Position numbers and translations under genes: made by a program. From Hylemonella gracilis ATCC 19624 (GTDB lineage: Bacteria > Pseudomonadota > Gammaproteobacteria > Burkholderiales > Burkholderiaceae_C), in assembly GCF_000211835.1 (NCBI RefSeq), contig NZ_AEGR01000102.1:1-64000 (forward strand): DNA of 64,000 nucleotides. Direction: 5' to 3'. Below the pieces are notes generated by a model, which ran no database searches, was not told where the DNA came from, and saw only the letters and a program-made list of their open reading frames with translations. Positions 49,591 to 53,985 of the stretch are shown piece by piece; the first letter of the stretch is position 1, and each line of letters starts with the position of its first letter.

Positions 49591-51249
49591 ATGAAACATC
49601 TGCTGAATTTGCTCGCGGCCATTGCGCTGCTGGTCTGGGGTACGCACCTCGTGCGCACCAACGTGTTGCGCGTCCTTGGCAGCAACCTGCGGCACTTCCT
49701 CGCCGCCAGCATGGGTAACCGCTTCACGGCCATGCTCTCGGGCCTGGGTGTCACGGCGGTCGTGCAGTCCAGCACAGCGACCGCCCTCATCACCTCGGCT
49801 TTCGTCGGCCAAGGCCTGATCGCCCTGCCGGCCGCGCTGGCCGTGATGCTGGGCGCGGACATGGGCACCAGCCTGATGGCGGTGGTTTTTTCCTTCGATC
49901 TGTCCTGGCTGTCGCCGTTGTTCATCTTCCTTGGCGTGACGCTCTTCATCGCGCGCCAAGGCAGCACAACGGGTGACGTCGGCCGTGTGCTGATCGGTCT
50001 GGGCCTGATGCTGCTGGCCCTGCAACTGGTGGGCGAGGCCACGACGACGCTGACCCGCAATCCGGCCGTGCAACTCATACTCGGCCAGCTCGCGAGCGAC
50101 CGACTGCTGGAAATCGTGATCGGTGCGCTGCTCACCGTGCTGGCTTATTCCAGCCTGGCGGTGGTGCTGCTGGTCGCCACCCTGGCGCTGCAGGTCATCA
50201 CGATCGACGTGGCGCTAGGCCTGGTGCTGGGCGCCAACCTGGGCAGCGGCCTGCTGGCGGTGCTGACCACCCTGCGCGCCAGCCCCAGCACGCGCCAGGT
50301 GCCGCTGGGCAACCTCATCTTCAAGGGCCTGGGCGTGCTGGTGGCCATCCCCTTGGTGCCGTATTGGCTGCGCGGCGCGCAATTCCATGTGCAGGACCCG
50401 GCGCTGCTGACCGTGCTGTTCCATCTGAGCTTCAACATCGCCACGGCGCTGATCTTCGTGGGGCTCACCCACCCTGTCGCGCGCTGGGTGGAGCGCCTGC
50501 TGCCGCGCAACAAGGCCTCGGCGCTGGAACGGCCCCAGCACCTGGACCCTTCCGCGCTGGCCACGCCCTCGCTGGCGATCTCCTGCGCGGCGCGCGAGGC
50601 CATGCACCAGGCCGACGTCGTGGAAACCATGCTGCGCGGGGTCCTCGCGGTCATCAAGGACAACGACCTCAAGCTGGCCGAGGAACTGCGCAAGATGGAC
50701 GATACGGTGGACAGCCTGTACTCGTCCATCAAGTACTACCTGACCAAGCTCTCGCGCCAGCAATTGAACGAGGCCGACAGCCGCCGCTGGACCGACATCA
50801 TCAGCTTCACCATCAACATGGAGCAGATCGGTGACATCGTGGAGCGCATCCTGCTCGACATCGAGGACAAGAAGATCCGCAAGGGACGGGCCTTCTCGGA
50901 GGCGGGCATGGCCGAGATCTGCGAGATGCATGAACGCCTGATCGCCAACATGAACCTGGGCATGAGCGTGTTCCTGAACGGCAATGTGCGCGACGCGCAG
51001 CGCCTGCTCGAGGAAAAAATGCGCTTTCGCGACCTGGAACGCGCCTACGCCACCAGTCACCTGGAGCGTCTGAGCGGACAAACCGTGCAGAGCATGGAAA
51101 CCAGCTCCCTGCACCTGGACCTGATCAGCGACCTCAAGCGCATCAACTCGCACATCTGCTCGATCGCCTACCCCATCCTGGATTCGGCCGGCGCGCTCGC
51201 GCCCACGCGGCTGCGCATGCCGCCCGAAGCCCCCTCGCAGAAAAACTGA
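49591..51249 (+). CDS. Na/Pi cotransporter family protein with PhoU-like domain
   Basis: 552 residues. N-terminal Na/Pi cotransporter (NptA/PNaS) with duplicated glutamine-serine motifs such as GVTAVVQSSTATALITSAF, then a C-terminal cytoplasmic helical PhoU-like domain (about 330-535) including EMHERLIANMNLGMSVF. Sodium-coupled phosphate uptake or export, or regulated flux, is likely. Begins 51 bases after lspA. Just upstream of the flagellinolysin gene but separated by a sigma-28-type promoter. Confidence 0.91.
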   Translation: MKHLLNLLAAIALLVWGTHLVRTNVLRVLGSNLRHFLAASMGNRFTAMLSGLGVTAVVQSSTATALITSAFVGQGLIALPAALAVMLGADMGTSLMAVVFSFDLSWLSPLFIFLGVTLFIARQGSTTGDVGRVLIGLGLMLLALQLVGEATTTLTRNPAVQLILGQLASDRLLEIVIGALLTVLAYSSLAVVLLVATLALQVITIDVALGLVLGANLGSGLLAVLTTLRASPSTRQVPLGNLIFKGLGVLVAIPLVPYWLRGAQFHVQDPALLTVLFHLSFNIATALIFVGLTHPVARWVERLLPRNKASALERPQHLDPSALATPSLAISCAAREAMHQADVVETMLRGVLAVIKDNDLKLAEELRKMDDTVDSLYSSIKYYLTKLSRQQLNEADSRRWTDIISFTINMEQIGDIVERILLDIEDKKIRKGRAFSEAGMAEICEMHERLIANMNLGMSVFLNGNVRDAQRLLEEKMRFRDLERAYATSHLERLSGQTVQSMETSSLHLDLISDLKRINSHICSIAYPILDSAGALAPTRLRMPPEAPSQKN

Positions 51250-51335
51250 TCCAGCCCGGAACGCGGCGAGCACGGGTTTACCCGGTGCATCCCGTCGGCG
51301 CGGGCCGGCGTCCTGCTTTTCCGCGGATCAAACCC

Positions 51336-51362
51336 TCAAGTCGCCCTCAGGCGCGCCGAAAA
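51336..51362 (+). promoter_or_regulatory. FliA (sigma-28) promoter of the flagellinolysin gene
   Basis: TCAA at 51336-51339, a 15-base spacer, and GCCGAAAA at 51355-51362. The known sigma-28 consensus is TAAA-N15-GCCGATAA; the spacing is exact and there are two mismatches. It lies about 111 bases before the gene start, where a late flagellar promoter should be. Confidence 0.75.
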
Positions 51363-51473
51363 CGAGGATGAAACCCCGTCTTCTGCCCGCCTGTTTCCAA
51401 CCGGCGGGTTGTGCCGTGGTTGTAGTGATCGAAGAAAACGGTTCCCCCAGGACACCCCTCACCCGGACTGCCC

Positions 51474-53171
51474 GTGGCGCTGACGATCAACACCAACATG
51501 CTGTCGCTGACGGCCCGGAGGAATCTGGCCGGCAGCGATGCGTCGTTCACGACCACGATCCAACGCTTGTCCAGCGGCCTGCGGGTCAACAGCGCCCGCG
51601 ACGACGCCGCCGGCCTGGCCATTTCGGAACGCTTCACCAGCCAGATCCGCGGACAGCAGCAGGCCATGCGCAACGCGAACGACGCGGTATCGCTGCTGCA
51701 GACGGCGGAGGGCGCGATCTCCAACGTCTCGGGGGGCTTGCAGCGCATCCGTGAGCTATCGATCCAGTCCGCCAACGCCACCAACTCGGCGTCGGACCGG
51801 CGCGCCTTGCAGCTTGAAGTCAGCCAGTTGCTGGCCGAGATCGACCGGGTGGGTGTCAGCACGGAGTTCAACACGCTCAAGGTGTTTGATCAGTTCCGCA
51901 ACAAGATGGTCGGCGGCGGCACCACGGGCGACCTGGACAAGGACGCCGTGATCGAGGGGCTGCAGGGCGGCTGGCTGGAAAACACCGAGCAGATGATCCA
52001 GGCCGCATATGGCATCGCGGGCAGCGGCAACACCTTCACCATCGACCTGAGTGTCTTCACCGATGGCGCGGGCGGCACCGCGGCGCGGGTCACTTCGCTC
52101 GCTGGCCCCAGTGGCCCGGGCACCAACATCACGCTGGAAATCGACATGGCGGATTTCGTTCCGCCCAACCTGCCCAACGGAGGCACGGCACCGTTCTACA
52201 GCGATCGCATCATCGCCCATGAAATGGTGCACGCCATCATGGCCACGGGGCAGAGTTGGGGCGAACTGGTCAACGATGGCGGCGCCACTTGGTTCCTGGA
52301 AGGCGTGGCCGAGTTCATCCATGGCGCGGATGAACGGGTCCAGGCCGACGGCGTGCCCGCGACACTGGCCGACAACATCTCCGCCTGGGGCGGCACGAGC
52401 GTGGACTACTCCTCGGCCTACACCGCCGTGCGCTACCTGCACACCATGACCGGCGGCAATGGCGTCAAGGACATGCTGCAGTACCTGCAAGGCACGCCGG
52501 GCCAGACACTGGATGACGCGTTCGCGGCCGTGACGTCTTACGCCAGCACGGCCGCTTTCGTGGCCGACTTCAACGCCAACAAGGCCGCCTTCATCTCGAC
52601 GTTCAACTTCGGCAACGCCGACACCGGGGCAATCGGAGGCGCGGATGTGGATGGTGGTCCTTCCATGAGCGCCGAAGACATCGTGAACGATTCGGGCAGC
52701 ACCATCAGCACCAATGTGCTGTCCGGCTTCAACGAGGTCTGGAAGGAATGGGAAGAAAGCAGCGGGGGCGGCACCGGCAACATCCTGCGCTTTCACATCG
52801 GGGCCAACGCCAAGCAGACCATCGACGCCGCCATCGGTGGGATGAACCTGGGCGCCCTCAACCTCACGGACGTGGACATCAGCGACGTCAACGGCGCCAA
52901 CAAGGCCATCCTGCGCATGGACCAGGCGCTCGAATACACCAGCCGCCTGCGCGCCAACTTGGGGGGGCAGATGTCGCGCCTGGAGCAAACCATCGCCAAC
53001 CTGCAGATTTCCGCCGAGAGCCTGACCGCGAGCCGCTCGCGCATCGTGGACGCGGACTTCGCGCGAGAAACCGCCGCGCTGTCACGCGCGCAAGTGCTGC
53101 AACAGGCGGGCACGGCCATGGTCGCGCAGGCGAACCAAATCCCCCAAGGCGTGCTGGCGCTGCTGCGTTAG
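51474..53171 (+). CDS. fliC: Flagellinolysin: flagellin with inserted zinc metallopeptidase domain
   Basis: 565 residues. Residues 1 to about 140 are the flagellin D0/D1 helices ([33 protein letters not shown]); about 415 to 565 is the matching C-terminal D1/D0 ([30 protein letters not shown]). The hypervariable centre carries a gluzincin-type peptidase: HEMVH at 249-253 (catalytic Glu250) and FLEGVAEF with third-ligand Glu276, aligning with the collagenase M9 pattern WYEEGGAE. Filament subunits with this fold were described as flagellinolysin, including in Hylemonella gracilis. Exported by the flagellar secretion system. Start GTG at 51474 with only a weak ribosome-binding site, odd for a high-expression filament gene; a better start is not visible. 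FliA-type promoter upstream. Confidence 0.93.
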
Positions 53172-53181
53172 CGTCGCGCGC

Positions 53182-53985
53182 TCAGCCCGCAGGCTGAACC
53201 AGGTCCGGCGCGAGTATCAGCGCGGCCTCCAGCGTGTACCGCCCGGCCGCCACGTCCGCGCGCACGCGATCGGGCGAGACGAGCTCGAAACGCTCCACTT
53301 CGCCATCCTGATTGATGGGTTCGATCCCCGCCGGCACCGTGCAACGGTACCAGTCGATGCGCTCCACGGTGTAGCCCACGCCCGAAGCGACATCGCTGGG
53401 CTTGCGGATTTCCAGCACACCCGCGTGAGCCACGTCATGCAAGGCGTCCAGTCTCAACCCAGCTTCTTCCCAGGTCTCGCGGGCCAGCGCCTGTTCCAGC
53501 GTGTCCGCCGCGCTGACCATGCCGCCCATCAGCGTGTCCCACAAGCCGGGGTCATTGGCCTTGTCCAAGGAACGGAGTTGCACCCAGACGCGATGCGGTT
53601 CGTCCTCGCGCAGCGATGCCGATACACCGTGCAAGTGCACCGCGCGCGTGGCGATGCCCAGCGCACGCACGGCGGCACGTTCGATCCGACCCACGGGTTC
53701 GCCCAGTTGCACGCCCTCCGACTCGGCATGCACCGGCAGCAGTTCATCGCGCCAAGCGCCGAGCAGGCCGCGCTCGCGCAAGGTTTGCGCCAGCGTGGCC
53801 AAGGTCGCGTCGGGACGGCTGAAGGCGTGGATGCACCAACCCGCCTCGAAGGAGGCCAAGGCCAGGGCGTGCGCCACCTCCGGCACGACCGAACCGATGC
53901 GCAGAGGTGCTGCCGCGCCGATGCGCAGCCACAGGGGGTCACGCGCTTGCAGCGGCGCGCGCTGATAACGCAGCAGATCAGTCAC
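53182..53985 (-). CDS. NUDIX hydrolase (DUF4743-NUDIX)
   Basis: 267 residues. N-terminal DUF4743-like region, then a NUDIX domain with LMGGMVSAADTLEQALARETWEEAGL. The box is complete except that the first Glu is Asp (GMVSAAD in place of GxxxxxE). Relatives act on thiamine-diphosphate or other nucleoside-diphosphate-type substrates; the exact substrate is unknown. Ends 10 bases after the flagellin stop, convergent with it. Confidence 0.9.
   Translation of the reverse strand: MTDLLRYQRAPLQARDPLWLRIGAAAPLRIGSVVPEVAHALALASFEAGWCIHAFSRPDATLATLAQTLRERGLLGAWRDELLPVHAESEGVQLGEPVGRIERAAVRALGIATRAVHLHGVSASLREDEPHRVWVQLRSLDKANDPGLWDTLMGGMVSAADTLEQALARETWEEAGLRLDALHDVAHAGVLEIRKPSDVASGVGYTVERIDWYRCTVPAGIEPINQDGEVERFELVSPDRVRADVAAGRYTLEAALILAPDLVQPAG

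Follow-up and report, generated by a model that had tools for sequence, protein, structure and literature searches.

A flagellin with a collagenase-like zinc peptidase domain in Hylemonella gracilis: a flagellinolysin gene with a likely FliA promoter and evidence of protease-domain exchange

A gene in the window (the whole stretch of 64,000 nucleotides analysed here) encodes a flagellin with a metallopeptidase in its middle. Is such a protein an active enzyme, does it work on the filament, what controls its synthesis and how did the combination arise? The account that we favour, with a probability of about 0.78, is that of a minor filament subunit, expressed under FliA, whose outward-facing gluzincin domain would digest proteins locally and whose protease module is exchangeable. 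A filament covered with protease sites is remarkable biology, but both the arrangement and, it appears, this same protein are already in print. The possible novelty is modest: a FliA-type promoter that would link an orphan gene to flagellar expression, and a clear instance of protease exchange at one locus.

The frame at 51474-53171 on the + strand is read for 565 residues from a GTG codon, with zero internal stops, and its product is almost certainly a flagellinolysin. The gene, its parts and its surroundings are as follows.

49591..51249, + strand: upstream neighbour, a Na/Pi cotransporter gene with a PhoU domain (Pfam scan)
51335..51362, + strand: candidate promoter resembling FliA (sigma-28) sites, CTCAAG-N14-GCCGAAAA; it ends 111 bases 5' of the GTG start
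51474..53171, + strand: gene for the flagellinolysin (565 aa, GTG as start codon); 415.5 bits with NF033876, whose cut-off is 205
51486..51893, + strand: flagellin N-terminal core (D0/D1), residues 5-140; Pfam PF00669 (Flagellin_N), above cut-off
51909..52733, + strand: zinc-peptidase domain as folded, residues 146-420; model pLDDT 84.7, pTM 0.88
52218..52232, + strand: HEMVH (residues 249-253), with two His expected to bind zinc and Glu250 as catalytic residue; 29/29 aligned rows
52299..52310, + strand: EGVA, residues 276-279, the third expected zinc ligand Glu276 and Ala279; 29/29 aligned rows
52620..52640, + strand: DTGAIGG, residues 383-389, end of the domain; D383 in 29/29 rows, G385 and G389 in 28/29
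52917..53165, + strand: flagellin C-terminal core, residues 482-564; Pfam PF00700 (Flagellin_C), E 7.1e-21
53182..53985, - strand: neighbouring NUDIX hydrolase gene; Pfam PF00293, E 3.5e-15

NF033876, the NCBIfam equivalog model for flagellinolysin, spans residues 112-496 with all 384 model positions. The two flagellin domains are intact, score above their Pfam cut-offs and flank the central peptidase domain; about 340 residues lie between them, since the Pfam matches end and resume at residues 140 and 482. The preliminary description had reported intact flagellin ends, HEMVH at 249-253 and a downstream FLEGVAEF (from residue 274) whose first Glu is residue 276, and each of these observations was reproduced. 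Its identification of the protein as a flagellinolysin also holds, the domain fold and its structural matches agreeing with the family model. The pairing of HExxH with a downstream Glu motif in this protein is more than chance: across the open stretches of 60 residues or more in all six frames of the 64-kb window (92,946 residues), HExxH occurs 10 times, and one occurrence alone is followed within 10-35 residues by E[GSAN]x[AST]E.

It appears that the protein is HgrFlaMP of the freshwater bacterium Hylemonella gracilis ATCC 19624 (UniProt F3KXG2, WP_006299301; PMC7643111) or the copy of a sister strain, a reading adopted because the published numbers match. Both proteins have 565 residues with Arg565 last, HExxH at 249-253 and no cysteine. 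The ends of the published construct, Leu163 and Ile450, are the same residues in the window protein, and the masses given (59 kDa for the full length, 30 kDa for the construct) compare with computed values of 59.1 and 29.7 kDa. Both genes lie near a NUDIX gene and outside a flagellar cluster. At the level of published numbers no difference was found. A MarR-type gene, named as another neighbour of HgrFlaMP (PMC7643111), did not turn up in the 15 frames of the window that were scanned. Copies from two other strains are described as 97% and 92% identical to HgrFlaMP (PMC7643111), and the window protein could be the third strain's copy (97%) instead of HgrFlaMP itself; the best relative found in genome contigs, in a search from which records of the window's own genome may be left out, comes from H. 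gracilis Niagara R and is 91% identical to the window protein. The species had been named correctly from the outset. The flagellinolysin is real but, as it appears to be the protein studied in the laboratory in 2020, already known.

The expected active site is complete. Among the 29 rows of an alignment of the peptidase domain with those of 28 relatives, H249, E250, H253, E276, A279, E280, D244, R245, M256, G284, Y312, A318 and D383 are invariant, and M251 and V252 almost so. In the domain model HEMVH lies on a helix of residues 243-256 (mean pLDDT 94 over residues 246-255), and Glu276 and Ala279 on a helix of residues 269-283 (mean pLDDT 93-95). Ala279 is the counterpart of the 'basement' Ala265 of the 2017 paper (PMC5595980), so that HExxH, distal Glu and basement Ala are all there (H249, E250, H253, E276, A279). 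For the calcium-site Asp that the 2017 paper describes in the protein of Clostridium haemolyticum, D224 and D227 are candidates 5' of HExxH, with Asp in 18/29 and 19/29 rows of the alignment of the window protein and its 28 relatives. DTGAIGG, 3' of the catalytic part, is strongly conserved.

The preliminary description had also counted a gap of 23 residues from His253 to Glu276, set it against the 28 of collagenases (a value that agrees with ColG numbering) and concluded that the active-site loop is shorter. The count is right. The gap is no peculiarity, because it varies from 17 to 23 across the 29 rows (17 in 7 rows, 18 in 14, 19 in 1, 20 in 2, 21 in 2 and 23 in 3, namely the window protein and its relatives L005 and L006) and is 25 in the C. 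haemolyticum flagellinolysin (residues 237 and 262; PMC5595980). The short gap was dropped as a special trait of the window protein, being ordinary variation in the 29 rows. In a comparison with the copy of Niagara R, the N-terminal core has a dN/dS of 0.07, the C-terminal core 0.08 and the protease core 0.10. With values of about 0.1 or lower in each part, the flagellin core and the protease are both kept under purifying selection.

The peptidase domain was folded alone because a full-length model (pLDDT 70.9), with flagellins among the matches listed, was uninformative for the protease. The domain model matches the peptidase-domain fold of M9 collagenases: of the 50 structural matches listed, M9 collagenases take the first ten places and M1 gluzincins most of the others. 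Sequence similarity is low. A PDB search with the domain alone gave zero matches at E up to 10, and the 29-row profile gave 4 weak ones, including ColG at E 0.13. Pfam Peptidase_M9 (PF01752) scores 16.5 bits with the full protein and 18 with the domain alone, below its cut-off of 26, while the same model, at E up to 0.1, has a match in 28 of the 29 domains aligned. A profile search proposed earlier to place the domain in M9B or among the flagellinolysins was decided for the latter family alone (415.5 bits against 205, versus 16.5 against 26 for Peptidase_M9). The clostridial collagenases ColG, ColT and ColH, whose peptidase domains we take to form subfamily M9B, differ from the window protein in that identity to the collagenase 7zbv is 15% and the Pfam M9 cut-off is not reached. 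The assignment to M9B falls, since the flagellinolysin family has been placed in MEROPS M101 (PMC7643111). Its specificity, too, is described as nearer to that of matrix metalloproteinases than of clostridial collagenases (PMC7643111, PMC5595980). The closer parallel is FliA(H) of C. haemolyticum, which has the same architecture, HExxH with a Glu ligand and a collagenase-like gluzincin domain (PMC5595980) and is 37% identical to HgrFlaMP (PMC7643111).

The two differ in their setting: the gene for FliA(H) is inside a flagellar cluster (PMC7643111), whereas the window gene is outside one. The gene order is ileS, lspA, Na/Pi cotransporter and flagellinolysin, then NUDIX, quinone oxidoreductase-like, EamA and SDR genes, a setting away from flagellar genes. 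In the same genome, FliA and FlhA are on contig C7 and FliS on C24. An ordinary flagellin, cut by the contig end, is encoded on C53 (G000:C53), and a third, weaker flagellin-type match on C7 may be FlgL. The Niagara R genome (G298) has two divergent ordinary flagellin genes, one of them partly masked. The window protein had been called 'the filament protein'; it is indeed a flagellin with intact ends, but not the sole one, given the ordinary flagellin on C53. In C. haemolyticum, flagellinolysin makes up to 10% of the filament (PMC5595980). In a survey with NF033876 of 299 genomes of the family, own genome included, drawn from a larger group, 143 gave a match at E up to 0.001 and 4 a match over the cut-off. 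Among the weaker matches listed, most covered the model ends only, which are flagellin sequence, and a few lay mid-model, in frames of about 600-970 residues (for example in G297, G154, G233 and G083). Flagellinolysin is rare among the 299 genomes sampled.

How might a gene at this distance from the flagellar genes be expressed with them? When candidates in the 64 kb were scored on both strands against the FliA consensus TAAAGTTT-N11-GCCGATAA, the site at 51335-51362 had 12/16 matches, in a three-way tie for the best of 424, and its -10 half is better than those of the other two. This site alone is not beyond chance, because TCAAG-N13-16-GCCGA has 2 matches in the window against 0.93 expected. 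A strict E. coli-like FliA pattern, TAAAG-N13-17-GCCGATA, has zero matches in the 64-kb window, and a sigma-70 scan of 51200-53400 returned no promoter-like sites. CTCAAG-N13-15-GCCGAWA has 4 matches in the genome and 0 in a reversed control. A related site is found 116-138 bases 5' of the start in all five flagellinolysin genes compared from Hylemonella and its kin (the window gene, L005, L006, L037 and L039), including L037, which is at another locus. A loose pattern, drawn up after these sites were seen, matches 10 times over 304,066 bases (both strands), and half of these matches are the five flagellinolysin sites. It has zero sites 5' of the five ordinary flagellin genes examined, three of which carry similar sites by eye, a base or two off the pattern. 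The word 'promoter' is absent from the main text of PMC7643111 and PMC5595980. FliA control of the flagellinolysin gene is likely, judged from these sequence patterns.

The favoured account can then be set out in steps. The gene lies outside the flagellar cluster, yet it is probably transcribed by FliA together with the late flagellar genes, as the promoter-like site suggests. The flagellin core would direct export through the flagellar apparatus, as others have shown for C. haemolyticum, and by the same precedent the product would become a minor filament subunit alongside ordinary flagellin. The central domain is predicted to be a collagenase-like gluzincin, with H249, H253 and E276 as zinc ligands and E250 as the base. 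Facing outward, it would cleave a broad range of proteins at sites that precede large hydrophobic or aromatic residues; this specificity is that of HgrFlaMP in vitro, where cleavage is broad with such residues at P1', depends on zinc and calcium, is inhibited by EDTA, and degrades casein and the flagellins of another species (PMC7643111). That activity was published for a construct of the HVR (PMC7643111). The most likely use would be the digestion of proteins in the cell's vicinity, either to obtain peptides as food or to attack the proteins and flagella of biofilm neighbours; host matrix is a less likely target. Finally, the protease domain would act as an exchangeable module in flagellin genes.

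The main competitor, which we consider unlikely, keeps export through the flagellar channel but has the protein act mainly as a free secreted protease, or has its domain freed by self-cleavage. It would suit the position of the gene outside the flagellar cluster. Tagged recombinant HgrFlaMP domain is prone to digest itself, the refolded full-length protein has only minor activity on casein, and release was raised as a possibility by the 2020 authors (PMC7643111). Moreover, relatives in Sporomusa, Lucifera and other Bacillota have the protease but an eroded flagellin core, with intact separate flagellins in 3/3 genomes tested. Against it, the flagellin ends are intact here and constrained (dN/dS 0.07 and 0.08), which would hardly be needed without assembly, and the C. 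haemolyticum flagellinolysin is on the surface of filaments, its activity sedimenting with them (PMC5595980).

Another possibility, that a genuine M9 collagenase sits within the flagellin and has collagen as its substrate, is very improbable. The M9 collagenases at the top of the 50 structural matches listed and the PF01752 matches in 28/29 aligned domains at E up to 0.1 speak for this reading; the PF01752 score of 16.5 bits against a cut-off of 26 and the placement of the family in M101 (PMC7643111) speak against it. H. gracilis does not liquefy gelatin and HgrFlaMP is without the P3 proline preference of matrix metalloproteinases (both PMC7643111), and the 2017 study was unable to show that the C. 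haemolyticum enzyme cleaves collagen I (PMC5595980). The same reports leave unsupported the role in degrading host matrix that had been suggested for H. gracilis. Outer flagellin domains are often structural, and a dead enzyme could have been retained as a variant of the surface structure. This is scarcely credible with the catalytic residues present in 29/29 rows and a dN/dS of 0.10 in the protease core, and the in vitro activity of HgrFlaMP, inhibited by EDTA (PMC7643111), refutes it if the window protein is HgrFlaMP. A filament-borne, active peptidase remains the reading that we prefer.

In most flagellinolysins the core is similar to the flagellins of the lineage to which the host belongs. 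A Clostridia MAG protein, for instance, has an N-terminal core with 64% identity to the MAG's own flagellin and 44% to the core of the window protein, while its protease domain shares 52% identity with that of the window protein. When 38 cores (17 of flagellinolysins, 21 of flagellins) were placed in a tree, the grouping of all flagellinolysins in one clade was rejected (AU p 6.4e-6, or 1.5e-70 once Massilia and L026 are taken out); the Massilia cores, on a long branch, are the exception to the host pattern. The simple spread of one ancestral flagellinolysin gene is rejected for the core by the same test (AU p 6.4e-6).

A local case is provided by L006, from a Hylemonella MAG, and L039, from a genome (G229) of the window's genus, which share ileS, lspA, qor, EamA and SDR neighbours. 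The two proteins are 88% and 80% identical in the core ends and 48% in the protease; their DNA aligns at about 80% on either side of a protease stretch of about 450 bases for which blastn gives no alignment. The protease tree groups L039 with L037, from another genus (G187), with support of 98/94, and holding L006 with L039 is rejected there (p 1.4e-41). Conversely, holding L037 with L039 is rejected in the core tree (p 2.4e-4). We regard this as sequence evidence of protease-domain exchange at the same locus within Hylemonella. A firm source for the exchanged domain is counted against, because holding the window protein, L005, L006 and L039 together is not rejected in the protease tree (p 0.078). 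The difference between L006 and L039 may, alternatively, reflect an assembly error in one or other genome.

Transfer of whole genes and of the protease domain only was already proposed in 2017 (PMC5595980), and the variable regions of flagellins are described as recombining through their conserved ends (PMC7018530). A limited literature search, which proves little, found no earlier report of the shuffling of metallopeptidase domains in flagellins, and as far as it goes it suggests that the L006/L039 case of local exchange is new. A more tentative idea, to which we give somewhat less than an even chance, is that the ileS-lspA-qor region of Hylemonella is a fixed, FliA-controlled slot for an enzymatic flagellin, in which recombination swaps the surface protease while core, promoter and position are kept. 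If so, related strains would show proteases of different lineages on the same flagellum. The promoter and the exchange both make the purpose of the protease easier to study, through a comparison of strains that share a core and differ in the protease.

Some relatives have an altered architecture. Eight Bacillota flagellinolysins, from Sporomusa, Lucifera and others, keep the protease motifs (L018, L019, L020, L021, L023, L024, L025 and L030). In the four of these that were scanned, L018, L020, L021 and L025, the core is eroded: Flagellin_N matches start at residues 41-85, and Flagellin_C is below cut-off or missing. Intact flagellins are also encoded in the genomes of L018, L021 and L025, and none of 10 frames scanned around L019, L021 and L025 is flagellar. 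The eroded-core proteins may be flagellin-derived proteases that have gone from the filament. A Fervidicella flagellinolysin gene (L022:6001-7649) is apparently broken by a frame change in the assembly, and one of its frames was used here. Elsewhere the peptidase domain lies in very long open frames, of 3757 residues in L028:1489-12759 and 2177 in L029:2-6532, the hosts being Cellvibrio and a gammaproteobacterial MAG. A Cellvibrionaceae MAG encodes a giant flagellin of 1078 residues (L026:5659-8892), with the peptidase motifs and three Flagellin_IN stretches.
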